Positions 23,070 through 50,180 of a stretch of DNA of 64,000 nt are shown here, one piece after another. The stretch comes from Micromonospora olivasterospora (GTDB taxonomy: Bacteria > Actinomycetota > Actinomycetes > Mycobacteriales > Micromonosporaceae), in assembly GCF_007830265.1 (NCBI RefSeq), contig NZ_VLKE01000001.1:1302001-1366000 (forward strand), written 5' to 3'. A program made the translations under genes and the position numbers. The notes beneath the pieces are model-generated. The model was not told the origin of the DNA, ran no database searches, and was given only the letters and a program-made list of their open reading frames with translations. How positions within the stretch are numbered: the stretch's first letter is position 1; each line of letters opens with the position of its first letter.

Positions 23070-23085
23070 CTGAACGATCGCTAAG
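23070..23085. promoter_or_regulatory. Putative shared operator, site 1 (icmA)
   Basis: CTGAACGATCGCTAAG, 54 bases upstream of the icmA start. Near-palindromic and similar to sites upstream of thiolase/epimerase (25947), the Hbd double gene (37094) and hbd (50165). Resembles the CNAACGNNCGTTNG pattern I recall for PaaR-type TetR repressors. Confidence 0.55.
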
Positions 23086-23093
23086 CCAGTTTC

Positions 23094-23124
23094 GTACCGG
23101 CCGGTAATCCGCCCGGCCGGGTAC
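23094..23124 (-). terminator. Hairpin downstream of the Asp23 gene
   Basis: GTACCGGCCGG (23094-23104) pairs with CCGGCCGGGTAC (23113-23124) with one bulged base and an 8-base loop, 25 bases past the stop of the minus-strand Asp23 gene. Confidence 0.5.
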
Positions 23125-23148
23125 GCCTCGGGCGGCGGGCGCGGCCGG

Positions 23149-23562
23149 TCAGGCGACGGGCGCGGCCGGGTCGCCCATCGCCACGTCGTCGACCCGAATG
23201 TTGATCTCGTCGACCCGCAGCCCGTACGCCTCGACGGCCTCCGTCACCCTGGCCCGGACCGCGTCGGTCACCTGCGGCACCGGCTGCCCGGCGTCGATCA
23301 CGATCACCAGGTTGACCACGGCGGCCCCGTTGGTGACGTGGGCGGAGCAGCCCCGCCGGGCGTCGCCCACCTGGTCCAGCCCGACCTTGTCGAGCACGGC
23401 GTTGAAGAACCGGGCCACGTCGCCGCCCAGCTCGGCCACCCCGGGCACCGACTTCGCGGCGGCCACCGCGATCTTCTCCACCATCTCGTCGGAGACGAGC
23501 GTGCTCCCGCCCGCCACCGCGTCCGGCGTCACCGACAGCTCCTGGGTCGCCTCGTCAGCCAT
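23149..23562 (-). CDS. Asp23/Gls24 family envelope-stress protein
   Basis: 137 residues from ATG 23562 (GGGGAGAG ribosome-binding site); an in-frame extension to 23589 is less likely. Asp23 domain: VSDEMVEKIAVAAAKSVPGVAELGG, VNLVIVIDAGQPVPQVTDAVRARVTEAVEAYGLRVDEINIRVDDV. Cytoplasmic proteins of this family are abundant, often membrane-associated and linked to envelope stress or alkaline shock. It lies between icmA and meaB on the same strand; a functional link to the mutase genes is not evident. Confidence 0.88.
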   Translation of the reverse strand: MADEATQELSVTPDAVAGGSTLVSDEMVEKIAVAAAKSVPGVAELGGDVARFFNAVLDKVGLDQVGDARRGCSAHVTNGAAVVNLVIVIDAGQPVPQVTDAVRARVTEAVEAYGLRVDEINIRVDDVAMGDPAAPVA

Positions 23563-23650
23563 GCTCTCCCCAACCGCAGACACGCGCACCGCCCCACGGA
23601 TGCGTGAGGCGGTGCGAGCGTACTAGCTCCGGGCGTCCGGGGTGGACACC

Positions 23651-24646
23651 TCAGGAGCCGAGCTGGGACAGCAGCTCGTCGGCTGCCGCGTACGGGTCGA
23701 GCGCCCCCTCCGCCACCTTCGCCGCGAGCGTGGGCAGCTCCGTACCGTCGCGCAGCGAGCCGATCCGGTCGCGCAGCGCGCCGAGCGCGATCGCCTCGAT
23801 CTCGGCGGCGGCCCGCGCCTCCCGGCGACGGCGCAGTTCGCCGTGCCGCTCCAGCCAGTCGCGGTGCTTGCCGATCGCGGCGGCGACCTCGTCGATCCCC
23901 TCGCCGCGGGCGGCGATCGTGCGGACCACCTGCGGCCGCCACTCGCCCGGGCCCCGCTCGCCCAGGGCGATCATGCCCTGGATGTCGCGGACCGTGGCGT
24001 CGGCGCCGTCCCGGTCGGCCTTGTTCACCACGAACACGTCGGCGATCTCCAGGATGCCGGCCTTCACCGCCTGGATCGCGTCGCCCATGCCGGGGGCCAG
24101 CAGCACCAGGGTGGTGTCCGCCAGCGAGGCGACCTCCACCTCGGCCTGCCCCACGCCGACCGTCTCGACCAGCACCACGTCGCAGCCGGCGCCCTCCAGC
24201 ACCCGCACCGCCTGCGGCGTGGCCGCGGAGAGCCCGCCGAGGTGGCCCCGGCTGGACATCGAGCGGATGTAGACGCCCGAGTCGGTGGCGTGGTCCTGCA
24301 TCCGCACCCGGTCGCCGAGGATCGCCCCGCCGGTGAACGGGCTGGACGGGTCGATGGCCAGCACGCCGACCCGGCGCCCGCGCGCCCGCAGCGCCCGGAC
24401 CAACTCGTTGGTGGTGGTCGACTTGCCCACCCCGGGCGAGCCGGTCAGGCCCACCACCTGCGCCTGACCCGCGTACGGGGCGAGCGCCGCGGCGACCCGC
24501 GGCAGCACCTCGTCGCCGGACTCGACCAGGGTGATCAGCCGGGCCACCGCGCGGGGGTCGCCCGCGCGAGCCCGTTCCACCAGCATCGGCACGTCCCGGC
24601 TGCGCCGCACCGGGAGGCCGACCTGCTCCACCTGTTCGCTGCTCAC
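23651..24646 (-). CDS. meaB: Methylmalonyl-CoA mutase-associated G-protein chaperone MeaB
   Basis: 331 residues, GTG start (GTGAGCAGCGAACAG). G3E-family P-loop GTPase: Walker A GLTGSPGVGKSTT, base-recognition NKAD (VFVVNKADRDGAD), and the ArgK/MeaB context VLETVGVGQAEVEVASLADTTLVLLAPGMGDAIQAVKAGILEIADV. MeaB loads AdoCbl on, and protects, B12-dependent acyl-CoA mutases; its location between thiolase and icmA, with a second mutase at 44.5 kb and an adenosyltransferase at 51.7 kb, fits that. It may serve both mutases. A short dispersed repeat fills the gap upstream of its start. Confidence 0.93.
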   Translation of the reverse strand: MSSEQVEQVGLPVRRSRDVPMLVERARAGDPRAVARLITLVESGDEVLPRVAAALAPYAGQAQVVGLTGSPGVGKSTTTNELVRALRARGRRVGVLAIDPSSPFTGGAILGDRVRMQDHATDSGVYIRSMSSRGHLGGLSAATPQAVRVLEGAGCDVVLVETVGVGQAEVEVASLADTTLVLLAPGMGDAIQAVKAGILEIADVFVVNKADRDGADATVRDIQGMIALGERGPGEWRPQVVRTIAARGEGIDEVAAAIGKHRDWLERHGELRRRREARAAAEIEAIALGALRDRIGSLRDGTELPTLAAKVAEGALDPYAAADELLSQLGS

Positions 24647-24663
24647 TGTGCGTTCTCTGTTCG

Positions 24664-24704
24664 CGACTGCGGGGCTCGCAAAACCGGCTCGCTCCTCGCG
24701 CTCA
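24664..24704. repeat. Short dispersed repeat, intergenic copy
   Basis: Contains CGACTGCGGGGCTCGCAA and, six bases later, CTCGCTCCTCGCGCTC. It sits between the thiolase stop and the meaB GTG start. A close copy lies inside the double Hbd gene at 36067-36101, exactly between the two domains. Confidence 0.8.
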
Positions 24705-24713
24705 CTGCGTCCC

Positions 24714-25913
24714 TTACTGACCGGTCTCGCCCGGGGCCGGGACGTGGATGATCAGGGCGTCGCCCTGGCCGCCGCCGCCGCACAGCGCCGCCGCGCCGGT
24801 GCCGCCGCCGCGCCGCTTCAGCTCCATCGCGAGGGTGAGCACCAGCCGGGCGCCGGACATGCCGATCGGGTGGCCGAGCGCGATCGCCCCGCCGTTGACG
24901 TTCACCCTGTCCGGGCTGATGCCCAGGTCGCGGGTGGACTTGATGCCGACGGCGGCGAACGCCTCGTTGATCTCGACGAGGTCGAGGTCGGCGATGGTCA
25001 GGCCGGCCTTGCGCAGGGCGTGGTTGATCGCGTTGGAGGGCTGCGAGTGCAGGGAGTTGTCGGGGCCCGCCACGTTGCCGTGCGCGCCGACCTCGGCCAG
25101 CCAGGTCAGCCCCAGCTCCTTGGCCTTCGCCTTGCTCATCACGACCACGGCGGCGGCGCCGTCGGAGATCGGCGAGGAGCTGCCGGCGGTGATCGTGCCG
25201 TCCTTGCTGAAGGCGGGACGAAGCCTGGCCAGCCCCTCCACCGTCGTGTCCGGGCGGATGCCCTCGTCCTCGCTGATCACCAGCGGGTCGCCCTTGCGCT
25301 GCGGGATCGCCACCGGGGTGATCTCGTCGGCGAAGTGGCCGTTCTTCTGCGCGGCGGCGGCCCGCTGGTGGCTGGCCGCGGCGAACGCGTCCTGCTCCTC
25401 GCGGGTGATGCCGTGCTTCGCGCCGTGCCGCTCGGTGGACTCGCCCATCGAGCAGCAGTCCCAGGCGTCGGTCAGCCCGTCCAGCGCCATGTGGTCCTTG
25501 ACCGTGACGTCGCCGTACTTGTAGCCGGATCGCTGGCCGAGCAGCAGGTGCGGGGCGTTGGTCATCGACTCCATGCCGCCGGCCACCACGATGTCGAACT
25601 CGCCGGCCCGGATGAGCTGGTCGGCCAGGGCGATCGCGTCCAGGCCGGAGAGGCAGACCTTGTTGATCGTCAACGCCGGCACCGACATCGGGACGCCGGC
25701 CTCGACCGCTGCCTGCCGGGCCGGGATCTGCCCGGCGCCGGCCTGCAGCACCTGGCCCATGATGACGTACTGCACCTGCTCGGGGGCCACCCCGGCGCGC
25801 TCCAGCGCCGCCTTGATCGCGATGCCGCCGAGCTTCGTCGCCGGGAGGTCCTTGAGGTTGCCCAGCAGGCGCCCCATGGGGGTCCGCGCGCCGCTGACGA
25901 TCACCGAAGCCAT
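24714..25913 (-). CDS. Acetyl-CoA C-acetyltransferase (thiolase II)
   Basis: 399 residues, full length for a biosynthetic or degradative thiolase. Catalytic residues visible: nucleophilic Cys in [18 protein letters not shown], His in [11 protein letters not shown] and the terminal Cys loop [12 protein letters not shown]. It condenses two acetyl-CoA to acetoacetyl-CoA, the first step toward crotonyl-CoA and the ethylmalonyl-CoA pathway, or cleaves 3-ketoacyl-CoA. GGAGG lies before ATG 25913. Divergent from the epimerase gene, with a candidate operator in the 62-base gap. Confidence 0.93.
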
Positions 25914-25946
25914 TGCCCGCCTCCGAGGGGGTGCCGACCTGTACGC

Positions 25947-25962
25947 CTTAACGATTATTCGG
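25947..25962. promoter_or_regulatory. Putative shared operator, site 2 (thiolase/epimerase divergent region)
   Basis: CTTAACGATTATTCGG (reverse complement CCGAATAATCGTTAAG), 34 bases from the thiolase start and 14 bases before the epimerase ATG. A CAGACT hexamer at 25964-25969 ends six bases before ATG 25976 and no ribosome-binding site is present, so the epimerase mRNA could be leaderless with this operator just upstream of its -10. Confidence 0.55.
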
Positions 25963-25975
25963 TCAGACTAGCGCC

Positions 25976-26443
25976 ATGCCTGAGAACTCCCCCGTCGAGA
26001 CCGCTGCCGACTATGTCACAGACATCGGCCTGCTCCGCATCGACCACGTCGGAATCGCGGTCGCCGACCTGGACACCGCGATCGACTTCTACCAGCGGAC
26101 GTTCGGGATGCGCTGCGTGCACGTCGAGACGAACGTCGAGCAGGGCGTACGCGAGGCGATGCTGGCCGTGGGCCCGACCGCCGAGGGCGGCTGCGTCCAG
26201 TTGCTCGCCCCGTTGAGCCCGGAGTCGACCATCGCGAAGTTCCTGGACCGCAAGGGGCCGGGCATCCAGCAGGTGGCGTACACCGTGGCGGACGTCGACG
26301 CGGCCTGCGCCGCGCTGCGCGAGCGCGGAATGCGGCTGCTCTACGAGACCCCCCGCCGGGGCACCGCGAACTCCCGGATCAACTTCGTCCACCCCAAGGA
26401 CGCCGGCGGGGTCCTCGTCGAACTGGTCGAGCCCGCCCGCTGA
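25976..26443 (+). CDS. mce: Methylmalonyl-CoA epimerase
   Basis: 155 residues, VOC fold with two beta-alpha-beta-beta-beta units. Metal ligands are recognisable: His in LLRIDHVGIAVADLDTAIDFYQ, the central VAYTVADVDAACAALRERGMRLL, and Glu in GGVLVELVEPAR; NFVHPKDAGGV is the family signature. It interconverts (2R)- and (2S)-methylmalonyl-CoA (and ethylmalonyl-CoA in pathways that use Ecm). Divergent from the thiolase, and the nearest gene to ccr. No Shine-Dalgarno sequence before ATG 25976; probably leaderless. Confidence 0.92.
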   Translation: MPENSPVETAADYVTDIGLLRIDHVGIAVADLDTAIDFYQRTFGMRCVHVETNVEQGVREAMLAVGPTAEGGCVQLLAPLSPESTIAKFLDRKGPGIQQVAYTVADVDAACAALRERGMRLLYETPRRGTANSRINFVHPKDAGGVLVELVEPAR

Positions 26444-26464
26444 GTCCCGCCCGACCCACGGCCG

Positions 26465-26573
26465 CTAGCGCCGACATGGCGGTGTCCGTAGGCCCCGGAT
26501 ACCGCCATGTCGCCGACAGAGCGCCCGCCCCAACAAAAGCACGGCCGGTGCCGAATGTGTCGGACGACGACAT
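26465..26573. repeat. Dispersed palindrome-box element
   Basis: CGACATGGCGGT (26472-26483) and ACCGCCATGTCG (26501-26512) form a 12-bp inverted repeat. The underlying boxes (degenerate ATGTCGCCGACAT at 26465 and 26507, another near 26561) match the repeat family at 8.7-9.3 kb. The element fills most of the gap between mce and ccr and could act as a terminator for mce. Confidence 0.7.
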
Positions 26574-26649
26574 GGCGGCCGACGCGCACCGGTGCCGACG
26601 ATGGCAGCACCCAGGCCCCGGCGCGGGTGCGGACGAACGGAGGATCACC

Positions 26650-28005
26650 GTGCAGCACATCCTCGAAGCGATCATGACGGCGGAGGGCTCCGACCAACCC
26701 GGGCGGCACCTCGCCGCCGTCGCCGGCCTGCCGGTGCCCGAGAGCTACCGGGGCGTGGTGGTACGCGCCGACGAGACCCGGATGTTCGAGGGCCTGGCCA
26801 CCCGGGACAAGGACCCGCGCAAGGCGCTGCACGTCCAGGAGGTGCCGACCCCGGAACTGGGGCCCGGCGAGGCGCTGGTCGCCGTCATGGCCAGCGCCGT
26901 CAACTACAACACCGTCTGGACCAGCATCTTCGAGCCGGTCTCCACCTTCACGTTCCTCCGGCGCTACGGCCGGATCTCCCCGCTGGCCGCCCGGCACGAC
27001 CTGCCGTACCACGTCGTGGGGTCGGACGCCGCCGGCGTGGTGCTGCGCACCGGCCCCGGGGTGACCCGGTGGAGGGCCGGCGACGAGGTGGTGGCGCACT
27101 GCCTGTCGGTGGAGCTGGAGGACGCGGCGGGCCACGACGACACGATGCTCGACCCGCAGCAGCGGATCTGGGGCTTCGAGACCAACTTCGGCGGGCTCGC
27201 CGAGCTGGCCGTGGTCAAGGCCAACCAGCTCATGCCGAAGCCGCGCCACCTGAGCTGGGAGGAGGCGGCCAGCCCGGGCCTGGTCAACTCCACCGCGTAC
27301 CGGCAGCTGGTCTCGCCCCACGGGGCGAACATGAAGCAGGGCGACGTGGTGCTGATCTGGGGCGCGTCCGGCGGCCTGGGCGGCTACGCCACCCAGCTGG
27401 CCCTGAACGGCGGGGCGATCCCGGTCTGCGTGGTGTCCTCGCCCGACAAGGCCGAGCTGTGCCGCCGGATGGGCGCCGAGCTGGTCATCGACCGGGCGGC
27501 GGAGAACTTCCGGTTCTGGCGGGACGAGCACACCCAGGACCAGGACGAGTGGCGGCGCTTCGGCGAGCGGATCCGGGAGCTGACCGGCGGTGCGGACCCG
27601 GACATCGTCTTCGAGCACCCGGGCCGGGAGACCTTCGGCGCCAGCGTCTACGTCGCCAAGCGCGGCGGCACCGTCGTCACCTGCGCGTCGACCAGCGGCT
27701 ACCAGCACCAGTACGACAACCGCTACCTCTGGATGCACCTCAAGCGGATCGTCGGCAGCCACTTCGCCAACTACCACGAGGCGTGGCAGGCCAACCGCCT
27801 CGTGGCGCTCGGCCGGATCCACCCGACCGTGTCGCGGACGTACCCGCTGGAGCAGACCGGCCAGGCGGCGTACGAGGTGCACCGCAACCTGCATCAGGGC
27901 AAGGTCGGGGTGCGCTGCCTGGCGCCGGCCGACGGCCTGGGCGTACGCGACCCGGAACTGCGCGCGCGGCACGAGGACGCGATCAACCGGTTCCGCGGGC
28001 GCTGA
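26650..28005 (+). CDS. ccr: Crotonyl-CoA carboxylase/reductase
   Basis: 451 residues, MDR superfamily. NADPH-binding loop WGASGGLGGYATQLA; residues associated with CO2 binding in this family appear conserved: Asn in AVNYN, Phe-Glu in WGFETNFGGLAEL and His in IVGSHFANYHEAWQAN. It reductively carboxylates crotonyl-CoA to (2S)-ethylmalonyl-CoA (and acrylyl-CoA to methylmalonyl-CoA), the committed step of the ethylmalonyl-CoA pathway and a source of polyketide extender units. GTG 26650 is chosen because GGAGGATC lies just upstream and the N-terminus matches the family length; the open frame extends to 26476 through the palindromic repeat. Confidence 0.95.
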   Translation: MQHILEAIMTAEGSDQPGRHLAAVAGLPVPESYRGVVVRADETRMFEGLATRDKDPRKALHVQEVPTPELGPGEALVAVMASAVNYNTVWTSIFEPVSTFTFLRRYGRISPLAARHDLPYHVVGSDAAGVVLRTGPGVTRWRAGDEVVAHCLSVELEDAAGHDDTMLDPQQRIWGFETNFGGLAELAVVKANQLMPKPRHLSWEEAASPGLVNSTAYRQLVSPHGANMKQGDVVLIWGASGGLGGYATQLALNGGAIPVCVVSSPDKAELCRRMGAELVIDRAAENFRFWRDEHTQDQDEWRRFGERIRELTGGADPDIVFEHPGRETFGASVYVAKRGGTVVTCASTSGYQHQYDNRYLWMHLKRIVGSHFANYHEAWQANRLVALGRIHPTVSRTYPLEQTGQAAYEVHRNLHQGKVGVRCLAPADGLGVRDPELRARHEDAINRFRGR

Positions 28006-28427
28006 CCCGCCCGGGGCGAGGGAGGCGGCGGGCGCCGCGCCGACCGCTCGCGCGACGGGCCGGCGGACGCCGGCGCCGACCTTCACCCGCCGGGCCCGGA
28101 CGGCCGCCGTCCGGGTGCCGTCCGGGCGCCGTCCGGCGTCCGGGCGATGGTCGCGTGCCGCCTTTCGTCCGCACGGCCGTGCCCCGTTCCGCGAAAGCGC
28201 GGTCAGTGATCGACAAAGGGGCGCGGGGTGCCTGCGCGACCCTTTTCCCCGCCGCCCCGCCCGAGCGCCAGAACCGGGCCCGGAGCTGCGGGATCGCCCC
28301 CCGACCCCGGACCGGCGGGCGGCGGCGAGTGGGCCGGGTAAAGGCGGCGAGTTGACCATGTAAAGAGGACACGAAAGCCGCGCACCGCTCTTGCGAACCA
28401 CCCCGGGGCGTCTGCCAGTATGTCCCA
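28006..28427. other. Intergenic region upstream of the DivIVA-like gene
   Basis: About 420 bases, very G+C-rich, no credible gene. The last 70 bases contain possible promoter elements for the gene at 28428 (TTGCGA near 28392 and CAGTAT near 28416, spacing 19), but the match is weak. Confidence 0.4.
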
Positions 28428-29693
28428 ATGCCCCAGCAGCAGTCCTCCCCTCTTACGTTCTTCGATAACGCGAACTCGCAGCCAGATTTCACCGTTGGCC
28501 TGCGCGGATACAACGTGGGTCAGGTCGATGACTTCATCGGCCGGCTGACCGCCGCGCTGACCCAGTCCGAGCAGGCCCGCGCCGAGGCCGAGCAGCGGAT
28601 GAACGACGCCCAGCGCCGGCTCCGCCAGGCCGAGCAGCGCCAGAGCGCGCTCGAGCAGAAGCTCGCCGAGACAAACAAGCAGCTCGAGGAGAACAGCCGG
28701 CCGACTCTCTCCGGCCTGGGCACCCGGGTCGAGCAGATCCTGCGGCTGGCCGAGGAGCAGGCCAACGACCACCGCAACGAGGCCAAGCGCGAGTCCGAGG
28801 GCATCCTCTCCGCGGCCCGCCTGGAGGCCCGCGAGATCACCGACAAGGCCCGCGCCGAGGCCGCCGCGATGAAGGCCACCGCCGAGCGCGAGGCGGGCGG
28901 CGTTCGCACCGCCGCCGAGCGCGAGGCCGCCGAGGTGCGCGTGCAGGCCCGCCGGGAGGCGGACACCCTCCGGGCGGACGCCGAGCGGGAGACCAAGCAG
29001 CTGCGCACCGTCACCGCGCACGAGGTCGCCGAGCTGAAGTCGACGGTGGAGCGCGAGGTGGCGACCCTGCGGGCGACCGCCGAGCGGGAGATCACCCAGC
29101 AGCGGGCCAAGGCGGCCCGGGAGGCCGAGGAGAAGCGCGCCGAGGCGACCAAGCTGCTCACCGACGCCCGCGACAAGCGCGACAAGGACCTCCAGGCCCT
29201 GGAGCTGCAACTCGCCGAGCGGCGCGAGAAGGCCGAGCGGGAGGAGTCCGAGCGGCACGCCGCCCACGTCGCGCAGACCCAGAAGCTGGTCGGCGAGGCC
29301 GAGCAGCGGGCCCGGGCCGCCCAGGAGCGGGCCAAGGAGATCGAGCAGCGCGCGGAGGCGCGCCGGGTCGAGTCCGAGCGCAGCGCCAACGAGACGGTCG
29401 AGAAGGCCAAGGCGCTCGCCGAGAAGACCCTCAGCGAGGCGAAGGCCGAGGCGAACCGCCTGCTCACCGAAGCCCGGACGGAGGCCGACCTGACCACGCA
29501 GGCCGCACGCCGCGAGGTCGAGGACCTCACCCGGCAGAAGGACGCGGTCACCGCGCAGCTCGGCCAGATGCTCTCCGGGCTGGCCGGCATCGTGCCGGGC
29601 GTGCCGGCGGCGGCCCCCGGGGCGGGGCAGGCCAAGCCGGAGGCCAAGGACGACGCCAAGGACGAGCCCGCGACCGCGGAGTCGGCCGGCTGA
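28428..29693 (+). CDS. DivIVA-domain coiled-coil protein (polarity/cytoskeletal type)
   Basis: 421 residues. N-terminal DivIVA-like motif FTVGLRGYNVGQVDDFIGRLTAAL (about 24-47), then a nearly continuous coiled coil (about 48-385) rich in Ala, Glu, Arg and Lys, with a break at PTLSGLGTRVEQILRLAEEQAND that is typical of DivIVA family proteins, and a disordered Pro/Ala tail. The architecture is like Streptomyces Scy/FilP or Wag31 relatives, which organise polar growth. The next gene downstream has the same layout. No TM helix. Exact role unknown. Confidence 0.85.
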   Translation: MPQQQSSPLTFFDNANSQPDFTVGLRGYNVGQVDDFIGRLTAALTQSEQARAEAEQRMNDAQRRLRQAEQRQSALEQKLAETNKQLEENSRPTLSGLGTRVEQILRLAEEQANDHRNEAKRESEGILSAARLEAREITDKARAEAAAMKATAEREAGGVRTAAEREAAEVRVQARREADTLRADAERETKQLRTVTAHEVAELKSTVEREVATLRATAEREITQQRAKAAREAEEKRAEATKLLTDARDKRDKDLQALELQLAERREKAEREESERHAAHVAQTQKLVGEAEQRARAAQERAKEIEQRAEARRVESERSANETVEKAKALAEKTLSEAKAEANRLLTEARTEADLTTQAARREVEDLTRQKDAVTAQLGQMLSGLAGIVPGVPAAAPGAGQAKPEAKDDAKDEPATAESAG

Positions 29694-29867
29694 CCGCTCG
29701 CACGGCCGGGGCATGAACGGCGCGGGGCCACACCGGGTGACCGGTGGGCACCGCGCCGTGCGCGTTTCCCAATCCCTGATGTGCCCGGGTACGACCCGGG
29801 TGAAGTAGGTCCCAACAGGCCCGTCCGTATCGCCCCAGCAGAGCCGGATGCGTGTGAGGATGGGGGC

Positions 29868-32279: not shown

Positions 32280-32287
32280 CGGGATCC

Positions 32288-35215: not shown

Positions 35216-37060
35216 TCAGCGACTGGTGTGGTCGCGGAACCCGCGCCCGCTCTTGCGGCCCAGGTAGCCGGCGGTGACCAGGTGCTCCAGCAGCGGCGCC
35301 GGGGCGAAGCCGGGCTCGCGCAGCTCCAGGTACAGCTCGCGCTGGATGGCCAACGCGACGTCCAGGCCGACCACGTCGAGCAGCTCGAACGGGCCCATCG
35401 GGTAGCCGCAGCCGAGCTTCATCGCGTGGTCGATGTCGTCGGCCGTGGAGTAGCTGGCCTCCAGCATCCGCACCGCGTCGTTCAGGTACGGGAAGAGCAG
35501 CGCGTTGACGATGAAGCCGGACCGGTCGCCGCAGACCACCGCGGCCTTGCCGAGCTGGGCGCAGACGGCGCGGGCGGTGGCGGTGGCCTCCGCCGAGGTG
35601 CGGATGGTCTGCACGATCTCCACCAGCGGCATGATCGGCGCCGGGTTGAAGAAGTGCAGCCCGAGCACGTCGGCCGGCCGCTGGGTGGCCATCGCGACGT
35701 CGATCACCGGCAGCGACGAGGTGGTGGTGGCGAACACGACGCCGGGCTTGCAGATCTCGTCGAGGCTGGCGAAGAGGGCCTTCTTGACGCTCAACTCCTC
35801 GACGACCGCCTCCACCACGAGGTCGACGTCGGCGAGGTGCTCCAGGGTGGCCGACCAGGTGACCCGGCCGAGCGCGGCGTCCCGGTCGGCCTCGCCGAGC
35901 TTGCCCCGCACCACGCCCTTGTTCAGCGAGGTCTTGACCGCCTCGCAGACCTTCGCCGACTTCTCCGCGCCGCGGGTGATCGAGACGACCTCGTACCCGG
36001 CCCTGGCGAACACCTCGATGATCCCGGTGGCCATCGTGCCCGACCCGACGACGCCGACCTTGCTCACGACTGCGGGGCTCGCAAGCTCACTCCTCGCGCT
36101 CGCGATACCGACCCTGGCGGTCACCCGGGCGCCGTCGGCCAGCGCCGGCTCCGCCGTCACCGGCGTGTGCTCGTCCGGTACGACCTTCGGCGAGCCCGGC
36201 CGCTCGTACGTGTAGAAGCCCCGGCCGGACTTGCGGCCGAGCAGGCCCGCGGTGACCATCTGCTTGATCAGCGGCACCGGGGCGTGCCGGCGGTCCCGCC
36301 CGCCCCGCCGGTACATGGTGTCCAGGATCTCGTACGCGGTGTCCAGGCCGATCAGGTCCATCAGGGCCAACGGGCCCATCGGCAGGCCGCAGCCGAGCTT
36401 CATCGCGGCGTCGATGTCCTCGCGGCTGGCGTAGTGCGACTCGAACAGCGCCACGGCGTGGTTGAGGTAGCCGAAGAGCAGGGCGTTGGCGATGAATCCC
36501 GCCCGGTCGCTGATGGTGACGTCGACCTTGCCGAGCCGGGCGCAGAGCGCCTCCACGTCCTCGACCACGTCGGCCGACGTGACCACCGTGCGGACCACCT
36601 CGACCAGCTTCATGATGGGGGCCGGGTTGAAGAAGTGGATGCCGATGACCTGGTTGGGCCGGGTGGTGGCGACCGAGATCTCGGTGACCGACAGCGACGA
36701 GGTGTTGGTGGCCAGGATCGCCTCGGGCTTGCAGACCCGGTCCAGCTCGGCGAAGATCCGCTGCTTGAGGTCGAGGTGCTCGGGGACCGCCTCGATCGCC
36801 AGGTCCACCGAGTGCAGCGCGTCCAGCCCGACGGCGAAGCGCACCCGGGACAGCAGCGCGTCCCGGTCGGCCTCGGCGAGCTTGCCCCGGGCGACCGCCC
36901 GGTCGGTCGAGCCGGTCAGGTTTGCCCGGCCGCGCTCCAGGGCGGCGTCGGAGATCTCGACCGCGACGACGTCGAGGCCGTTGCGCGCGAACACCTCCAC
37001 GATGCCCGCACCCATGGTGCCCAGCCCCACAACGCCCACGCTGGTGAACTCGCGCGCCAC
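35216..37060 (-). CDS. Double 3-hydroxybutyryl-CoA dehydrogenase (two complete Hbd domains in one chain)
   Basis: 614 residues. Domain 1 (about 1-290): NAD loop VGLGTMGAGIVEVFARNG, FFNPAPIMKLVEVVRT, catalytic-region NALLFGYLNHAVAL, end LLGRKSGRGFYTYERPG. Domain 2 (about 330-614): VGSGTMATGIIEVFARAG, FFNPAPIMPLVEIVQT, NALLFPYLNDAVRM, end YLGRKSGRGFRDHTSR. Each half is a full-length (S)-3-hydroxyacyl-CoA dehydrogenase. The linker includes IASARSELASPAVVSK, encoded by a dispersed repeat, followed by GTGAGCAAG (36067), which could start the second domain independently (283 residues). Start GTG 37060 has GGGAGG six bases upstream; an in-frame ATG at 37105 lies inside the candidate operator. Reduces acetoacetyl-CoA toward crotonyl-CoA. 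Confidence 0.9.
   Translation of the reverse strand: MAREFTSVGVVGLGTMGAGIVEVFARNGLDVVAVEISDAALERGRANLTGSTDRAVARGKLAEADRDALLSRVRFAVGLDALHSVDLAIEAVPEHLDLKQRIFAELDRVCKPEAILATNTSSLSVTEISVATTRPNQVIGIHFFNPAPIMKLVEVVRTVVTSADVVEDVEALCARLGKVDVTISDRAGFIANALLFGYLNHAVALFESHYASREDIDAAMKLGCGLPMGPLALMDLIGLDTAYEILDTMYRRGGRDRRHAPVPLIKQMVTAGLLGRKSGRGFYTYERPGSPKVVPDEHTPVTAEPALADGARVTARVGIASARSELASPAVVSKVGVVGSGTMATGIIEVFARAGYEVVSITRGAEKSAKVCEAVKTSLNKGVVRGKLGEADRDAALGRVTWSATLEHLADVDLVVEAVVEELSVKKALFASLDEICKPGVVFATTTSSLPVIDVAMATQRPADVLGLHFFNPAPIMPLVEIVQTIRTSAEATATARAVCAQLGKAAVVCGDRSGFIVNALLFPYLNDAVRMLEASYSTADDIDHAMKLGCGYPMGPFELLDVVGLDVALAIQRELYLELREPGFAPAPLLEHLVTAGYLGRKSGRGFRDHTSR
36067..36101. repeat. Short dispersed repeat, in-frame copy inside the double Hbd gene
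   Basis: Contains CGACTGCGGGGCTCGCAA then CTCACTCCTCGCGCTC, the same two blocks as the intergenic copy at 24664-24704 but five bases shorter between them. It lies between the two dehydrogenase domains. Confidence 0.8.
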
Positions 37061-37093: not shown

Positions 37094-37109
37094 ATGAACG
37101 GCCACTAAG
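37094..37109. promoter_or_regulatory. Putative shared operator, site 3 (double Hbd gene)
   Basis: ATGAACGGCCACTAAG, 34 bases upstream of GTG 37060; 12 of 16 positions match site 1 (CTGAACGATCGCTAAG). Confidence 0.5.
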
Positions 37110-42955: not shown

Positions 42956-43044
42956 GCCCCCACGATGCCGCCGGTCACACCCCGGCGCCCCGCCGGATCG
43001 GACATTCGACGCAGAATGGCGCCCGCCGGGCGTTGATCGACTCC

Positions 43045-43099
43045 GTGTCGCCGACATGGTGGCTTCTGGATCGCTCGGATACCCCCATGTCTCCGCCAT
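43045..43099. repeat. Dispersed palindrome-box element
   Basis: GTGTCGCCGACAT (43045-43057) and ATGTCTCCGCCAT (43087-43099), 42 bases apart, as in the tandem block at 8.7-9.3 kb. Confidence 0.7.
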
Positions 43100-43194
43100 G
43101 GTGTCGATCACGACACCTGGCGGCGTACCGGACGATGGGGTCAGGGCCGGGACCCCGACCGGAACGAGGGACGGAGACCGAGCAGAATCGCCAC

Positions 43195-44145: not shown

Positions 44146-44147
44146 AA

Positions 44148-44157
44148 ATACTAGTAT
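44148..44157. promoter_or_regulatory. A+T-rich palindrome before the DUF1540 gene
   Basis: ATACTAGTAT, perfect 10-bp palindrome in an unusually A+T-rich patch (GTAAAAATACTAGTATCGGG) right after the deacetylase stop and 35 bases before the DUF1540 start. It may contain a -10 (TAGTAT) and an operator. Confidence 0.4.
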
Positions 44158-44191
44158 CGGGAGAAAGCCGGCTAAGGAGCAGGAGGCCGCC

Positions 44192-44488
44192 ATGACCGCG
44201 TCGACGGAGAGGCCCCGCGTCCGGGAGTGCGTCGTGGCGGCCTGCGCCTACAACCGGCGCGGCGACTGCCACGCCTTCGCCATCACCATCGGCAGCAGCG
44301 ACCACGCCCACTGCCACACCTTCACCACCCTTCCGAAGCCCGGCGGCGTGGACACGCTGATCGCCCAGGTCGGCGCCTGCCAGCGGGAGGACTGCCGGCA
44401 CAACTCGCGCCTGGAGTGCCACGCCCCGGGCATCCGGGTCGGGCCGGACAACGACCTGGCGGACTGCATGACGTACGACCGCCGCTGA
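44192..44488 (+). CDS. DUF1540 Cys-rich protein
   Basis: 98 residues with two copies of a Cys/His motif: VRECVVAACAYNRRGDCHAFAITIG and VGACQREDCRHNSRLECHAPGIRVG, each with three Cys and one His and followed by a DHAHCHTF / DNDLADCMTY loop, the DUF1540 pattern. Probably binds metal (zinc or iron). Strong AGGAGG upstream of ATG 44192. Function unknown. Confidence 0.88.
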   Translation: MTASTERPRVRECVVAACAYNRRGDCHAFAITIGSSDHAHCHTFTTLPKPGGVDTLIAQVGACQREDCRHNSRLECHAPGIRVGPDNDLADCMTYDRR

Positions 44489-44497
44489 CCCGAGGGC

Positions 44498-46504
44498 TCA
44501 GCCCAGGGCGTTGGCCTCCCGGATCACGGTCACGAGGTCGCCGATGATGTCGGTGAGGGCGAAGTCCTTGGGCGTGAACACCCGGGCGACCCCGGCCGCC
44601 CGCAGCGCTTCGGCGTCGCCCCGCGGGATGATGCCGCCGACCACCACGGGCAGGTCCCCCCGGCCGGCGGCGCGCAGGCCGTCCAGCACCGCCGGCACGG
44701 CGGCCAGGTGCGAGCCGGAGAGCACCGACAACCCGACCAGGTCGACGTCCTCCTCGACCGCGGCGGCCACGATCTCCCCGGCGGTCAGCCGGATGCCCTG
44801 GTAGACGACCTCGAAGCCGGCGTCGCGGGCGCGTACCGCGATCTGCTCGGCGCCGTTGGAGTGCCCGTCCAGGCCGGGCTTGCCGACCAGCAGCCGCAGC
44901 CGCCCGGTGCCCAGCTCGCGGGCGGTGGCGACGACGCGCTCCCGCACGGCGGCCAGTCCCGCGCCGCCGCCTGCCCCGGCCGCGCCGGCCAGCCCGGTCG
45001 GCCCCCGGTACTCCCCGAAGACCTGGCGCAGCGCGCCGGCCCACTCGCCGGTGGTCACCCCGGCCCGCACGCACTCCAGCGTCGCCGGCATCAGGTTGGC
45101 CGACGACGCGGCGTCCGCCCGCAGCCGGTCGAGCGCCGCCGCGACCGCCGCGCCGTCCCGCCCGGCCCGCCACTCGCGTACGGCGGCCACGGCCGCCGCC
45201 TCCCCCGCCGGGTCGACCTGCTCGATCGCCTCGGCGCCGGCGGCGGTCAGCGGGGACGGCTCGGTCTCGGTGAACCGGTTGACGCCGACCACCACGTCCG
45301 TGCCGGCCTCCATCCGGCGGCGGCGGTCGGCCAGCGAGGCGACCAGCGCGCTCTTGAGGTACCCGGACTCGACGGCGGCCACCACGCCGCCCATCTCCAG
45401 CACCTTCTCCAGCTCCACCCGCGCCCCGGCGACGATCCCGTCGACCAGCGCGGTCATCACGTGCGAGCCGTCGAACAGGTCCGGGTACTCCAGCAGGTCC
45501 GACTCGTACGCCAGCACCTGCTGCATCCGCAGCGACCACTGCTGGTCCCACGGACGGGGCAGCCCGAGCGCCTCGTTCCAGGCGGGCAGCTGCACGGCCC
45601 GGGCCCGGGCGTCGCGGGACAGCGTCACGCCGAGCATCTCCAGCACGATCCGCTGGACGTTGTTCTCCGGCTGGGCCTCGGTCAGCCCGAGCGAGTTGAC
45701 CTGCACGCCGTACCGGAAGCGACGCTGCTTCGGGTCGGACACGCCGTACCGCTCGCGGGTGATCTCGTCCCAGAGCGCGCCGAACGCGCGCATCTTGGCG
45801 ATCTCCTCGACGAAGCGCACCCCGGCGTTCACGAAGAACGAGATCCGGGCGACCACGTCGCCCATCCGCTCGGCCGGCACCTGGCCGGAGTCGCGGACGG
45901 CGTCCAGCACGGCGACGGCGGTGGCGAGGGCGAAGCCGACCTCCTGCACCGGCGTCGCGCCCGCCTCCTGCAGGTGGTACGAGCAGATGTTCACCGGGTT
46001 CCAGCGCGGCAGCTCCCGCAGCGCGTACGCGACGACGTCCGCGGTCAGCCGCAGCGACGCGGCCGGCGGGAAGATGTACGTCCCCCGGGACAGGTACTCC
46101 TTGATGATGTCGTTCTGCGTGGTGCCCGCGCAGCGGGCCAGCTCGACGCCCTGCTCCGTCGCCACCGTGCCGTAGAGGGCGAGCAGCCACATCGCCGGCG
46201 CGTTGATCGTCATCGAGGTGTTCATGTCGGCGAGCGGGATGCCGTCGAAGAGGGCACGCATGTCGCCGAGGTGGGCCACGGGCACCCCGACCCGGCCGAC
46301 CTCACCGGCGGCCAGCTCGTGGTCCGGGTCGTACCCGGTCTGGGTGGGCAGGTCGAAGGCCACCGACAGCCCGGTCTGCCCCTTGGCGAGGTTGCGCCGG
46401 TAGAGCGCGTTGCTCGCGGCGGCCGAGGAGTGCCCGGCGTAGGTGCGCATCACCCAGGGGCGGTCCCGCTCGGGCAGCCGGCCGGGGAGAGCGTTCTCGT
46501 CCAT
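44498..46504 (-). CDS. ecm: Ethylmalonyl-CoA mutase (MeaA-like, AdoCbl-dependent)
   Basis: 668 residues: substrate TIM barrel (1-510) fused to a B12-binding domain (about 530-668) with the DxHxxG motif LLVGKPGLDGHSNGAEQIAVRARDAGFEVVYQGIRLT, VGLSVLSGSH and VVVGGIIPRGD. The N-terminal PWVMRTYAGHSSAAASN and KEYLSRGTYIF keep the Tyr/Arg pair expected for carboxylated substrates. It lacks the long N-terminal stretch of methylmalonyl-CoA mutase, which fits MeaA/Ecm. It converts (2R)-ethylmalonyl-CoA to methylsuccinyl-CoA. No Shine-Dalgarno sequence: TAGACT (46516-46511) is six bases from ATG 46504, so the transcript is probably leaderless. Confidence 0.92.
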   Translation of the reverse strand: MDENALPGRLPERDRPWVMRTYAGHSSAAASNALYRRNLAKGQTGLSVAFDLPTQTGYDPDHELAAGEVGRVGVPVAHLGDMRALFDGIPLADMNTSMTINAPAMWLLALYGTVATEQGVELARCAGTTQNDIIKEYLSRGTYIFPPAASLRLTADVVAYALRELPRWNPVNICSYHLQEAGATPVQEVGFALATAVAVLDAVRDSGQVPAERMGDVVARISFFVNAGVRFVEEIAKMRAFGALWDEITRERYGVSDPKQRRFRYGVQVNSLGLTEAQPENNVQRIVLEMLGVTLSRDARARAVQLPAWNEALGLPRPWDQQWSLRMQQVLAYESDLLEYPDLFDGSHVMTALVDGIVAGARVELEKVLEMGGVVAAVESGYLKSALVASLADRRRRMEAGTDVVVGVNRFTETEPSPLTAAGAEAIEQVDPAGEAAAVAAVREWRAGRDGAAVAAALDRLRADAASSANLMPATLECVRAGVTTGEWAGALRQVFGEYRGPTGLAGAAGAGGGAGLAAVRERVVATARELGTGRLRLLVGKPGLDGHSNGAEQIAVRARDAGFEVVYQGIRLTAGEIVAAAVEEDVDLVGLSVLSGSHLAAVPAVLDGLRAAGRGDLPVVVGGIIPRGDAEALRAAGVARVFTPKDFALTDIIGDLVTVIREANALG

Positions 46505-46510
46505 GGCGGG

Positions 46511-46532
46511 AGTCTAGGTTACCGACCAGTAA
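46511..46532 (-). promoter_or_regulatory. ecm promoter with overlapping inverted repeat
   Basis: TTACTGGTCGGTAA (minus-strand reading of 46532-46519) is an imperfect palindrome (TTAC..GTAA arms) located immediately upstream of the candidate -10 TAGACT (46516-46511). A TetR-type repressor could act here; the motif differs from the four CTGAACG-type sites. Confidence 0.45.
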
Positions 46533-46558
46533 AAGAGGCTGTGGAAAACCACACAGGT

Positions 46559-46597
46559 CCATGTCGGGGACGAGGGGGCACAGACGGCCCGACATGG
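46559..46597. repeat. Variant palindrome element
   Basis: CCATGTCGGG (46559-46568) pairs with CCCGACATGG (46588-46597), 19-base loop, between ecm and the ABC transporter genes. Related in sequence to the ATGTCGCCGACAT boxes. Confidence 0.6.
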
Positions 46598-46655
46598 GCC
46601 GGACCGCCACACCCCGGGCGCCGCCGGATAGCCCCGGGGTCGCACACTGGACGGC

Positions 46656-47504
46656 ATGGATGACCAGCTCGCGATCTCCGTACGGGGACTGCGCAAGGCG
46701 TACGGCGACAACGTCGCGGTGGCGGGCCTGGACCTCGCCGTCTCCCGTGGCGAGGTGTTCGCCCTGCTCGGCCCGAACGGCGCGGGCAAGACCACGACCG
46801 TGGAGATCCTGGAGGGCTACCGGCAGCGCGACGCGGGCGAGGTGTCCGTGCTGGGCAGCGACCCCGCCAGCCCCGACCCGCGCTGGCGGTCGCGGGTCGG
46901 CATCGTGCTGCAGGGCACCGGCGAGTTCGACGAGCTGACCGTCGCCGAGGTGGTCCGGCACTTCGCCGGCTTCTATCCGGGCGCCGACGACCCGGACAAG
47001 GTGATCGAACGCGTCGGCCTGGGCGCCAAGGCCCGGGCGCGCACCCACACGCTCTCCGGCGGGCAGAAGCGCCGCCTGGACGTGGCGCTCGGCATCATCG
47101 GCCGGCCCGAGCTGCTCTTCCTCGACGAGCCGACCACCGGCTTCGACCCGGAGGCCCGGCGCGAGTTCTGGGAGCTGATCCGAGACCTCGCCGCCGCCGG
47201 CACCACCATCGTGCTCACCACCCACTACCTGGACGAGGCCGAGGCGCTGGCCGACCGGGTCGGGGTGATCGCCAGCGGCCGGCTGGTGGAGGTGGCCCCG
47301 CCCGACCTCCTCGGCAACCGCCAGGAGGCCCTGGCGACGGTCTCCTGGCGTACGCCGGAGGGGGCCGTCGAGAGCGCGGAGAGCGCGACGCCGACGGCGC
47401 TGGTCGCCGAGCTGGCCGCGCGCCACGGCGGCGAGGTGCCCGGCCTCACCGTGACCCGGCCGACCCTGGAAGACGTCTACCTCAAGATGATCGGACACCG
47501 ATGA
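46656..47504 (+). CDS. ABC exporter ATP-binding subunit
   Basis: 282 residues. Walker A GPNGAGKTT, Q-loop VLQGTGEFDELTVAEV, signature LSGGQKRRLDVALG, Walker B LLFLDEPTTGFDPEARR and H-loop LTTHYLDEAEALADR. DrrA/ABC-2 exporter type with the C-terminal dimer extension ending TLEDVYLKMIG. The stop overlaps the permease start by four bases (ATGA), so the two form one exporter. Substrate unknown; lipids, antibiotics and peptides are typical. The organism keeps it beside ecm without evident link. Confidence 0.92.
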   Translation: MDDQLAISVRGLRKAYGDNVAVAGLDLAVSRGEVFALLGPNGAGKTTTVEILEGYRQRDAGEVSVLGSDPASPDPRWRSRVGIVLQGTGEFDELTVAEVVRHFAGFYPGADDPDKVIERVGLGAKARARTHTLSGGQKRRLDVALGIIGRPELLFLDEPTTGFDPEARREFWELIRDLAAAGTTIVLTTHYLDEAEALADRVGVIASGRLVEVAPPDLLGNRQEALATVSWRTPEGAVESAESATPTALVAELAARHGGEVPGLTVTRPTLEDVYLKMIGHR

Positions 47505-48343
47505 CGACCACCACGAAGCCGGCGGCCCCGGTCGCCGCCGCCCCGGCGCGTCGGCTGGGGCCGGCCGCGCTCGCCCTGCGCCAGGGCCGCCTGGAGATCA
47601 CCCAGTTCCTGCGCAGCCGGGAATCCGTCGTCTTCACGCTGGGCTTCCCGATCATCATGATCCTGATCTTCGCCTCGATCTTCAACGGCGAGCTCGGCGG
47701 CGGGGTGAAATTCACCCAGTACTTCGTCACCGGCATGATCGCGAGCGGCCTGATGACGGTGAGCTTCCAGAACCTCGGCATCTGGATCCCGATCGAGCGG
47801 GACCGGGGGGTGCTCAAGCGCTACCGGGGCACGCCGATGCCGAAGTGGGTGTGGTTCGCCGGCAAGGTGATCATGGTGGTGGCGGTCGGGGTGCTCGAGA
47901 TCGCCCTGCTGCTCGCCGTCTCCGTCGCCCTGTTCGACCTGAGACTGCCGAGCGCGAGCGGCTGGCTCACCTTCGGCTGGGTCTCCGTCCTCGGGGTCAC
48001 CGCCTGCACGCTGTGCGGCATCGCCATCTCCTCGTTGGCCCGTACGGCGCGCAGCGGTTCGGCCGTGGTCACCCCGGTCGCCCTGGTGCTCCAGTTCATC
48101 TCCGGCGTCTTCTTCGTCTTCACCGAGCTGCCGTCCTGGATGCAGCAGGTGGCGGCGCTGTTCCCGCTCAAGTGGATGTGCCAGGGCCTCCGGTCGGTCT
48201 TCCTCCCGGAGAGCTTCGGCGCCCGGGAGGCGGCCGGCGGGTTCGAGCTGGGCCGGGTGGCCCTCGTCCTCGCCCTCTGGTGCGTGATCGGCCTCGTCCT
48301 CTGCCTGACCACCTTCCGCTGGACCACCAGGCGCGACGGCTGA
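47501..48343 (+). CDS. ABC-2 type permease subunit
   Basis: 280 residues. Six TM helices (about 42-60, 72-92, 118-142, 154-175, 185-205, 245-268) with the ABC2-type sequence QFLRSRESVVFTLGFPIIMILIFASIFNGELGG and the central VTPVALVLQFISGVFFVFTELPSWMQQVAALFPLKWMCQGLRS. Partner of the ATPase encoded directly upstream (overlapping start). Confidence 0.9.
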   Translation: MTTTTKPAAPVAAAPARRLGPAALALRQGRLEITQFLRSRESVVFTLGFPIIMILIFASIFNGELGGGVKFTQYFVTGMIASGLMTVSFQNLGIWIPIERDRGVLKRYRGTPMPKWVWFAGKVIMVVAVGVLEIALLLAVSVALFDLRLPSASGWLTFGWVSVLGVTACTLCGIAISSLARTARSGSAVVTPVALVLQFISGVFFVFTELPSWMQQVAALFPLKWMCQGLRSVFLPESFGAREAAGGFELGRVALVLALWCVIGLVLCLTTFRWTTRRDG

Positions 48344-48399
48344 GGGCGGCGCCCCGCGGCGGGGCGGCCCGGAGGGGCCGAGGCTGCCAGACTGGGCCG

Positions 48400-49215
48400 G
48401 TGGTGCTTCGACTGACCCGGCGACGACTGCTGCTGGCCGGGGCCGGCACGGCCACCCTGGCCGTGGGGGCGGGCTGGACGGCCCGGGAGCTGACCCGGCC
48501 CCGCCCCGGGCCCGCGCCCGCGTTGCCGGACGCTCCGGCCGGCGACGAGCGGCTGGTCCAGCGGGCGTCCGCCACGCGGGGCCGTTCCGTCGACTTCTGG
48601 ACGGCCGTGCCCGCGGGCCACAGCGACGGACGGGGCCTGCCGGTCTGCCTGGTGCTGCACGGCGCGTCCTCGACCCCGCGCGACTTCGCCCGGTTCGGGC
48701 TGGCCCGGTTCCTCACCGACGCCGTACGCCGGGGCGCCCCGCCGTTCGCGCTCGCCGGCGCGACCGGCGGCCGGCTGTCGTGGCGCCGCTCGGGCTCGGA
48801 CGACCCGCAGCGGATGGTGCGCGAGGAACTGCCGGCGTGGTGCGCCGAGCGCGGGTTCGACACCAGCCGGATCGCCGCCTGGGGCTGGTCGATGGGGGGC
48901 TTCGGGTCGCTGCTGCTCGCCGAGACGTACCCCGGCTGGCTGCGCGCGGTGGCCGCCTTCTCCCCCGCCGTACGGCCCGGGGACGCCGTCTTCGCGGGCG
49001 CCCAGCGGCTGCGCGGGACCCCGGTGGGGCTCTGGTGCGGCCGGCAGGACGGCCTGCTACCCGAGGTACGGGCGCTCGCCCGCGCGCTGCCCGAGCCGCC
49101 GGCCCTGGCCGAGTACGCCGACGGCCGGCACAACTTCGTCTACTGGGGCACGGTGGTCCCCACCGCCTTCCCGTTCCTGGCCGGCGCGCTCACCCCACCC
49201 CGCCCGGGCCGCTGA
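48400..49215 (+). CDS. Secreted alpha/beta hydrolase (esterase) with Tat-like signal
   Basis: 271 residues from GTG 48400 (GTG 48403 also possible). Signal: LTRRRLLLAGAGTATLAVGAG, a Tat-type RR motif followed by a hydrophobic stretch. Mature domain: VCLVLHGASSTPRDFARFG, SRIAAWGWSMGGFGSLLLAE (nucleophile GWSMG), VGLWCGRQDGLLPEV (acid) and YADGRHNFVYWG (His). The fold resembles Esterase D/mycolyltransferase-like enzymes. Substrate unknown. Confidence 0.85.
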   Translation: MVLRLTRRRLLLAGAGTATLAVGAGWTARELTRPRPGPAPALPDAPAGDERLVQRASATRGRSVDFWTAVPAGHSDGRGLPVCLVLHGASSTPRDFARFGLARFLTDAVRRGAPPFALAGATGGRLSWRRSGSDDPQRMVREELPAWCAERGFDTSRIAAWGWSMGGFGSLLLAETYPGWLRAVAAFSPAVRPGDAVFAGAQRLRGTPVGLWCGRQDGLLPEVRALARALPEPPALAEYADGRHNFVYWGTVVPTAFPFLAGALTPPRPGR

Positions 49216-49260
49216 CCCTGTCCCCGCCGGCACCCGGCGGGGACAGGTGAGCCCAGCGGT

Positions 49261-50109
49261 TCAGTAGGTGTAGAAACCCCTGCCGGTCTTGCGGCCCAGG
49301 TCGCCGGCCGTGACCATGCGCTGGAGCAGCTCCGGCGGGAAGAACTTCTCGTCGGCGGTGTCGGTGTAGATGTTCTTCGAGGCGTGCAGCAGCACGTCCA
49401 CGCCGGTCAGGTCGCAGGTGGCCAGCGGGCCCATGGCGTGGCCGAAGCCGAGCCGGCAGGCGGTGTCCAAATCCTCGGCCGACACCACGCCCGACTCGAC
49501 CAGCTTCACCGCCTCCACGACCAGCGCGGCGATCAGCCGGGTGGTGACGAAGCCGGCGATGTCCCGGTTCACCACCACGACCGTCTTGCCCACGCCCTCG
49601 GCGAACGCCTTCGCGGTGGCCAGCGTCTCGTCGCTGGTCTTGTAGCCGCGCACCAGCTCGCAGAGCTTCATCATCGGCACGGGCGAGAAGAAGTGGGTGC
49701 CGACGACCGACTCGGGGCGCTCGGTCACCGCGGCGATCTGGGTGACCGGAATGGCGGAGGTGTTGGTGGCCAGCACCGCGTCGGCCTTGCAGATCTTGTT
49801 TAGCGCGCGGAACACCTCGTGCTTGACGTCCAGCCGCTCGAAGACCGCCTCGACGACGATGTCGGCGTCGGCGGCGGCCTCCAGGTCGGTGGTCGGGGTG
49901 ATCCGGCCCAGCGTCGCCTCGACCTCGGAGCGGTCGATCGTGCCCTTCTCGGCGAACTTCTCCAGCGACTTCCGGATGCCGGCCAGCCCCCGCCCGGTGG
50001 CCGCGTCGTCCAGGTCCCGCAGCGTCACCTGCCAGCCCGCCTGCGCCGCCACCTGGGCGATGCCCGAGCCCATCGGCCCGGCCCCGACGACCGCGAGTCG
50101 ACCCGCCAT
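49261..50109 (-). CDS. 3-Hydroxybutyryl-CoA dehydrogenase
   Basis: 282 residues, single-domain Hbd: NAD loop VVGAGPMGSGIAQVAAQAG, ATNTSAIPVTQIAAVTERPESVVGTHFFSPVPMMKLCELVRG, FVTTRLIAALVVEAVKLVESG, and GRKTGRGFYTY at the C-terminus. Converts acetoacetyl-CoA to 3-hydroxybutyryl-CoA; second locus for this step besides the double Hbd gene at 35216. GGGAGAG precedes ATG 50109. A candidate shared operator lies 56 bases upstream. Confidence 0.92.
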   Translation of the reverse strand: MAGRLAVVGAGPMGSGIAQVAAQAGWQVTLRDLDDAATGRGLAGIRKSLEKFAEKGTIDRSEVEATLGRITPTTDLEAAADADIVVEAVFERLDVKHEVFRALNKICKADAVLATNTSAIPVTQIAAVTERPESVVGTHFFSPVPMMKLCELVRGYKTSDETLATAKAFAEGVGKTVVVVNRDIAGFVTTRLIAALVVEAVKLVESGVVSAEDLDTACRLGFGHAMGPLATCDLTGVDVLLHASKNIYTDTADEKFFPPELLQRMVTAGDLGRKTGRGFYTY

Positions 50110-50164
50110 CTGCTCTCTCCCTCGCCTGAATTCGAGTGTCTGTCAGCACCCTAGTCGGCAAGAC

Positions 50165-50180
50165 TGAACGAAGGTTAAGT
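50165..50180. promoter_or_regulatory. Putative shared operator, site 4 (hbd)
   Basis: CTGAACGAAGGTTAAG, 56 bases upstream of the hbd ATG. The first eight bases are identical to site 1 and the last five (TTAAG) are also found in the reverse complement of site 2. Confidence 0.55.

Follow-up and report, generated by a model that had tools for sequence, protein, structure and literature searches.

Four 16-base palindromic sites in a 64,000-nucleotide stretch of the Micromonospora olivasterospora genome (the window, C1:1302001-1366000 of 7.07 Mb; G+C 73%) are, with high probability, operators of a single TetR-family repressor encoded outside the window in an accD cluster. The sites precede icmA, a divergent thiolase and epimerase gene pair, a double 3-hydroxybutyryl-CoA dehydrogenase gene (double Hbd) and hbd (Table 1). 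The predicted repressor is an orthologue of BkaR/Fad35R and would be released from DNA by acyl-coenzyme A (acyl-CoA) esters. An earlier note on this DNA had read the four strings as a TetR-type operator shared by acyl-CoA genes, a reading now supported by conservation of the sites, by the placement of close matches in the genome, and by a TetR gene with a site of its own in relatives.

Conserved sites and genome-wide matches

Read towards the gene, the sites are CTTAGCGATCGTTCAG at icmA, CTTAGTGGCCGTTCAT at double Hbd, and CTTAACCTTCGTTCAG at hbd, and the site at 25947 reads CTTAACGATTATTCGG along the + strand. All four strings reported earlier are present, but the fourth, CTGAACGAAGGTTAAG, lies at 50164-50179, one base before its reported place. 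At icmA and hbd, -10-like boxes (TACACT at 23054-23059 and TAGGGT at 50148-50153) follow the site by 10 nt. This exact spacing would suit a promoter part, such as an unusual -35 element or the site of an alternative sigma factor, rather than an operator. We consider a promoter part quite improbable, since the motif is palindromic, is found in either orientation with respect to genes, and varies in position, from before the box at icmA and hbd to the start region at double Hbd and 8 bases before the start codon at loci L022 and L025.

The strength of the sites was assessed with a weight matrix derived from eight sites beyond the window (the leave-out matrix), which was then used to score the window; for comparison, the best score per simulated 64-kb sequence (n = 60) had a mean of 13.2 and a maximum of 20.1. 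By sequence alone, the icmA and hbd sites are above chance and the epimerase/thiolase site is borderline. The site at 37094 is no better than chance by this measure, ranks seventh in the window, and is outscored by a string at 61151 (8.1 bits), the look-alike in atpH to which the earlier note had drawn attention; it is retained because of its conservation only. A loose consensus also shows no excess in the window (21 matches versus 27.15 expected). The low rank of the 37094 site and the lack of enrichment would fit four chance resemblances picked by eye, an explanation we find barely credible: for the set of four it is already contradicted by conservation in all same-genus genomes compared and by the counts of near-exact matches given below.

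The earlier note had named a lack of conservation in orthologous promoters as grounds for abandoning the operator; instead, all four sites recur before their orthologues in every same-genus genome compared (Table 1; these counts include the genome under study). For this comparison, 3 of the 30 loci of one fetched set were excluded as paralogues or a 51% relative. In other families of the order, the site was found before icmA in 0/8 loci, before epimerase/thiolase in 1/8 (L214, 14.8 bits), before double Hbd in 0/5, and before hbd in 0/2. Mean identity is 0.98 in the icmA site versus 0.58 in the upstream and 0.59 in the downstream flank, 0.91 in the epimerase site versus 0.70 and 0.65 (14 rows, one of another family), and 0.86 in the hbd site versus 0.35 and 0.73. 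At double Hbd, the upstream flank (0.84) is as conserved as the site (0.83) and holds a conserved promoter-like stretch that ends in CATAAC and adjoins the site; the downstream flank is at 0.38. Two loci of other families carry a different palindrome just before icmA, ACTAGGACGTCCTAGT at L050:1448-1463 (genome G022) and the variant ACTAGGACGTCCTACT at L053:1480-1495 (genome G026), as if another regulator had taken over the icmA promoter there.

Genome-wide counts were made with the pattern CTTARCGNTCGTTCAG, using the reversed pattern as a control. The icmA and hbd sites shaped this pattern, and the seven other target sites of the own genome did not. The target genes were listed from the own genome, and counts elsewhere test them in different, though related, genomes; because of the common descent of same-genus genomes, such counts are not independent of one another. 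Sixteen distinct places in the own genome match with up to two mismatches. Nine of these lie at the starts of icmA, hbd, accD, PPDK, an icmB-like B12 subunit gene, pccA, an ETF gene, ilvE, and an M24-peptidase/acyl-CoA dehydrogenase pair. In seven other same-genus genomes, matches with at most one mismatch occur at 23 places, compared with 1 for the reversed pattern, and 21 of the 23 precede icmA (7), accD (7), hbd (3), double hbd (2), or the dehydrogenase locus (2). When up to two mismatches are allowed, five of these genomes yield 92 strand-wise matches versus 27 for the reversed pattern, corresponding to 89 distinct places, 46 of them before orthologues of the listed genes. The on-target share is 6/6 at zero, 10/12 at one, and 30/71 at two mismatches. 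All five genomes have sites before icmA, accD, ilvE, and the dehydrogenase locus; those before icmB, PPDK, hbd, and double hbd occur in 4/5; those before pccA and epimerase/thiolase in 3/5; and the ETF site in 2/5.

The earlier note had expected, from a matrix scan of the genome, that a true operator would concentrate upstream of acyl-CoA genes rather than be as frequent in coding DNA. Close matches do concentrate before such genes and favour an operator, but the looser two-mismatch places mostly do not: 41 of the 71 in the five genomes are off the listed targets, and 22 of these 41 fall within called genes. The idea of an operator shared by C4/C5 acyl-CoA genes is supported, but the set is wider, taking in branched-chain amino acid catabolism, the ETF gene, and PPDK. 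A site near the start of an S1-protein gene (637392) recurs in 2/5 genomes and was excluded from the set. Other recurring places, with no evident link to the set, are at a malic enzyme/zinc dehydrogenase locus (L256), a BTAD regulator (L358), and another acyl-CoA dehydrogenase (L353).

The candidate repressor in the accD cluster

In agreement with the earlier note, none of the window candidates that were scored (150 of 172) showed a TetR domain. The candidate TetR gene, encoding 203 amino acids, lies about 1.4 Mb away at C1 2695619-2696227, where the gene order is TetR, biotin carboxylase, HMG-CoA lyase, operator, accD (acyl-CoA carboxylase beta). The order is similar in the clusters fetched from the family (Micromonosporaceae), in which the TetR gene adjoins branched-chain acyl-CoA carboxylase/HMG-CoA lyase genes. 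A relative of the candidate is present in 76/81 family genomes, covering 41/44 genera, and a site of at least 12 bits occurs in 18/20 clusters from other genera. The named loci of the regulator gene, the best 80 of 436, come from Micromonospora, Salinispora, Verrucosispora, Dactylosporangium, Phytohabitans, Actinoplanes, Catenuloplanes, and Catellatospora. Among these 80, the Micromonospora relatives reach 96% identity over the best segment, and the site precedes accD in all 68 loci that extend to accD.

An autoregulated TetR gene is usually recognised by a site in its own promoter, a point also made in the BkaR report (PMC3920632). Among the best 80 of 436 named loci, the site precedes the TetR gene itself in 8, from Dactylosporangium, Actinoplanes, Catenuloplanes, and Catellatospora. 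A further 40 family loci, one per genome and from 26 genera, have the site 35 to 88 bases upstream of the TetR start in 16 cases (12/26 genera); in 14 it lies at -47 to -50. The earlier note had suggested looking for a TetR gene preceded by a copy of the site; one is found in relatives, but not in Micromonospora.

Besides the weakness of the 37094 site, several results weigh against one repressor acting at all these sites. Seven of the 16 places in the own genome are off target (four inside called genes, one near the S1-protein start, one before a PIG-L gene, and one with no gene called nearby), and at three mismatches the excess is small (89/93 versus 68/65 for the reversed pattern). In the five relatives, 43 of the 89 places are not before listed targets, and the dehydrogenase site of L025 does not recur within two mismatches. 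The two most divergent clusters, L167 and L168, contain the TetR gene with no recognisable site, and a search of both for another palindrome gave nothing convincing. Finally, in Micromonospora, including the four same-genus loci among the 40, no site precedes the TetR gene.

This last result would agree with a real operator that belongs to another regulator, either a different TetR or a PadR-like gene divergent from pccA, with the accD-cluster TetR gene merely one of its targets. The PadR-like gene starts beside the pccA site, and the similar CTGACCGATCGGTCAG occurs twice immediately upstream of a TetR gene at 1400116. We nevertheless judge such a regulator unlikely. In 12 other genera the site precedes the accD-cluster TetR gene at a nearly constant distance, and in the same position the orthologues of this gene outside the family have the established BkaR/AccR operator. 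The PadR-like gene is followed by ABC-transporter genes, and the TetR gene at 1400116 sits among other genes. Of the 30 TetR domains of the own genome that were examined, only those at 1400116 and 1479425, besides the accD cluster, have a site scoring 14 bits or more nearby; both were set aside as regulators, and their neighbours read as transport genes from their translations. The tandem CTGACCGATCGGTCAG copies (C1 1400034-1400068; L085:2535-2569) are probably a close variant of the motif that belongs to the repressor at 1400116. In several named Micromonospora loci (L263:6640, L264:5549, L265:6629, L278:6568, and others), the TetR gene is directly followed, before the biotin carboxylase gene, by a perfect palindrome (for example CTTAACGCCCGTTAAG) that could be a second operator or a terminator stem.

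Operator and recognition helix in Micromonosporaceae

The candidate TetR protein of the accD cluster matches PDB entry 4G12 (E = 1.9e-42, residues 15-199 of 203). This entry is Fad35R, in which Tyr63, Arg64, and His65 are among the conserved DNA-binding residues (PMC4418694). Fad35R is BkaR, which represses accD1-bkdC, the thiolase gene fadA4, and itself through the operator core GTTA(N)T(N4)A(N)TAAC (PMC3920632). Like BkaR/Fad35R of mycobacteria (MSMEG_4718, Rv2506), the regulator here is a TetR protein, orthologous by sequence, that lies beside acyl-CoA carboxylase genes and is paired with a 16-bp palindrome. The BkaR targets include accD1 and fadA4, which in mycobacteria has an epimerase gene beside it, and sites precede accD and the thiolase/epimerase pair here. 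Unlike in BkaR, the operator is CTKAACGNNCGTTMAG on the same 16 positions, the recognition-helix Arg64 of Fad35R is replaced by His, and the predicted set adds icmA, icmB, the hbd genes, the ETF gene, ilvE, and PPDK.

AccR (SAVERM_5279) of Streptomyces avermitilis, compared with our regulator by its published description, is also a TetR repressor with a 16-nt palindrome, GTTAA-N6-TTAAC, and controls accD1A1-hmgL-fadE4 and other short-chain acyl-CoA genes (PMC10933834); its outer operator bases are G..C, whereas those here are C..G. A mycobacterial PccD is reported to be 45% like AccR and 68% like BkaR (PMC11596240). The best NCBIfam match of the regulator, NF050111 (SACE_7040 family), scores 228.6 bits, under the cut-off of 250. 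SACE_7040 is a TetR protein affecting Saccharopolyspora morphology and, unlike the regulator here, has no acyl-CoA targets in the available part of its report (PMC3825060). By sequence, the regulator is the Micromonosporaceae orthologue of the BkaR/Fad35R family, governing a predicted lineage-specific variant of a known regulon.

Outside the family, we compared the 28 best orthologue loci from a survey with a match in 83/118 genomes. Of these 28, 26 carry GTTA-N8-TAAC close to the TetR start: 21/21 of those with Arg and 5/7 of those with Lys at the position matching Arg64. In contrast, 0 of the 40 family loci, all of which have His, carry it between -250 and +60 relative to the TetR start, and this places the family regulator outside the BkaR/AccR operator type. 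At the icmA, epimerase, double Hbd, and hbd loci of other families (n = 23), GTTA-N8-TAAC is present only at L212, L213, L214, and L229, and the fuller form GTTAR...YTAAC at none; we therefore make no claim that these genes join the set outside the family.

Across 120 family rows (40 + 80 loci; species may overlap) and the 28 outside rows, position 57 is the sole residue of the recognition helix that fully separates the groups, being His in 120/120 family rows versus Arg in 21 and Lys in 7 of the others. Met41 and Pro72 also separate the groups, and both lie outside the recognition helix. L167 and L168 have His at position 57, yet no recognisable site. In the ligand domain (TetR, L024:1120-1731), the family has Leu118 versus Asp/Glu outside, and position 119 is His in 118, Asn in 1, and Gln in 1 versus Arg outside; this may reflect a changed ligand or effector or a changed allosteric link. 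The correlation between residue and operator probably reflects a single event on the tree and does not amount to a statistical test of cause.

We tentatively propose, at somewhat less than even confidence, that a change from Arg/Lys to His at position 57 (Fad35R Arg64) in the Micromonosporaceae ancestor rewired a BkaR/AccR repressor to a new operator, with the outer G:C pair becoming C:G. About a dozen promoters would have followed or been recruited, and the repressor would now gate the route by which branched-chain amino acids reach the pools of butyryl-, propionyl-, and methylmalonyl-CoA used for polyketides. The family offers a natural case in which a repressor and many of its operators differ together, and because the candidates come down to a single residue and a single base pair, rewiring of the regulon is directly testable.

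Sequence directly shows the sites and their conservation, the target set, the regulator's homology and synteny, the site before its gene in other genera, and the operator difference; how binding, repression, and effector would work together we infer. At icmA and hbd, a dimer bound to CTKAACGNNCGTTMAG would cover the -35 region (10 nt before their boxes), as it would at the thiolase/epimerase pair, where the site lies between two divergent promoters; at double Hbd it would cover the start region. Transcription would be blocked until a short or branched acyl-CoA accumulates and releases the repressor. Beyond the window, the set would include accD, pccA, icmB, ilvE, the ETF gene, the peptidase/acyl-CoA dehydrogenase locus, and PPDK. 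Release would turn on together transamination of branched-chain amino acids (ilvE), dehydrogenation and its electron acceptor, carboxylation, the mutase, the C4 and propionate steps, and formation of phosphoenolpyruvate by PPDK.

Micromonospora, Salinispora, Actinoplanes, and their relatives are known for polyketides, and for these bacteria the analysis predicts which repressor controls the supply of acyl-CoA precursors and through which targets. BkaR and AccR already represent this kind of system. The altered operator, the extent of the set, and its distribution across Micromonosporaceae were not found in the available parts of the open-licence literature, and a paper under subscription could exist.

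Features of the window and repeats elsewhere

The epimerase/thiolase operator may also serve meaB, which is possibly co-transcribed with the thiolase gene. The earlier note had found no site before meaB, ccr, or ecm. The absence holds for ccr, and meaB may share the thiolase operator. Before ecm (a B12-dependent mutase gene, start at 46504) there is only a weak operator-like string of 9.9 bits, GTTACCGACCAGTAAA, at 46518-46533, 13 bases before the start. The likely start of ccr is GTG 26650, because of its GGAGG, 206 bases past the epimerase stop. The longest frame would place ccr directly behind the epimerase gene (32 bases), an arrangement dropped in favour of the likelier start; ccr is therefore not claimed for the epimerase operon. 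Double Hbd probably starts at GTG 37060, 33 bases past its site.

Table 1. Predicted operators and associated genes in the window
Feature	Position	Strand	Details
Predicted operator before icmA	23070..23085	-	26.2 bits; leave-out 25.9; 19/19 same-genus genomes
icmA, isobutyryl/methylmalonyl-CoA mutase large subunit	21328..23016	-	TIGR00641, 660 bits; gene name from the earlier note
meaB	23651..24646	-	TIGR00750, 337.6 bits; start 67 bases past thiolase stop
Acetyl-CoA acyltransferase (thiolase)	24714..25913	-	TIGR01930, 464.8 bits
Predicted operator between divergent thiolase (-) and epimerase (+)	25947..25962		21.3 bits; leave-out 15.4; 13/13 same-genus genomes
Methylmalonyl-CoA epimerase	25976..26443	+	TIGR03081, 135.3 bits; 13 bases past operator
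ccr, crotonyl-CoA carboxylase/reductase	26650..28005	+	TIGR01751, 611.9 bits for the longer frame 26476-28005
Double 3-hydroxybutyryl-CoA dehydrogenase	35216..37060	-	NF005875, two stretches (on longer frame)
Predicted operator before double Hbd	37094..37109	-	14.8 bits; leave-out 7.8; 13/13 same-genus genomes, 13.0 to 21.5 bits
hbd, 3-hydroxybutyryl-CoA dehydrogenase	49261..50109	-	NF004474, 324.7 bits, under the cut-off of 408
Predicted operator before hbd	50164..50179	-	25.1 bits with both matrices; 13/13 same-genus genomes

Elsewhere in the own genome, the 16-mer CTGAGCGGGCGTTCAA occurs at C1 185062, 265076, 302004, 2288824, 2368278, 2906686, 3780075, 5662469, and 6714939, nine copies that suggest a dispersed repeat. 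Within C1 2339888-2341793, CGTCCCGGTCGTTCAG recurs every 315 bases with one copy varied, and more copies lie near 2316225 and 3159342; the 315-base recurrence suggests a long internal repeat of a gene.

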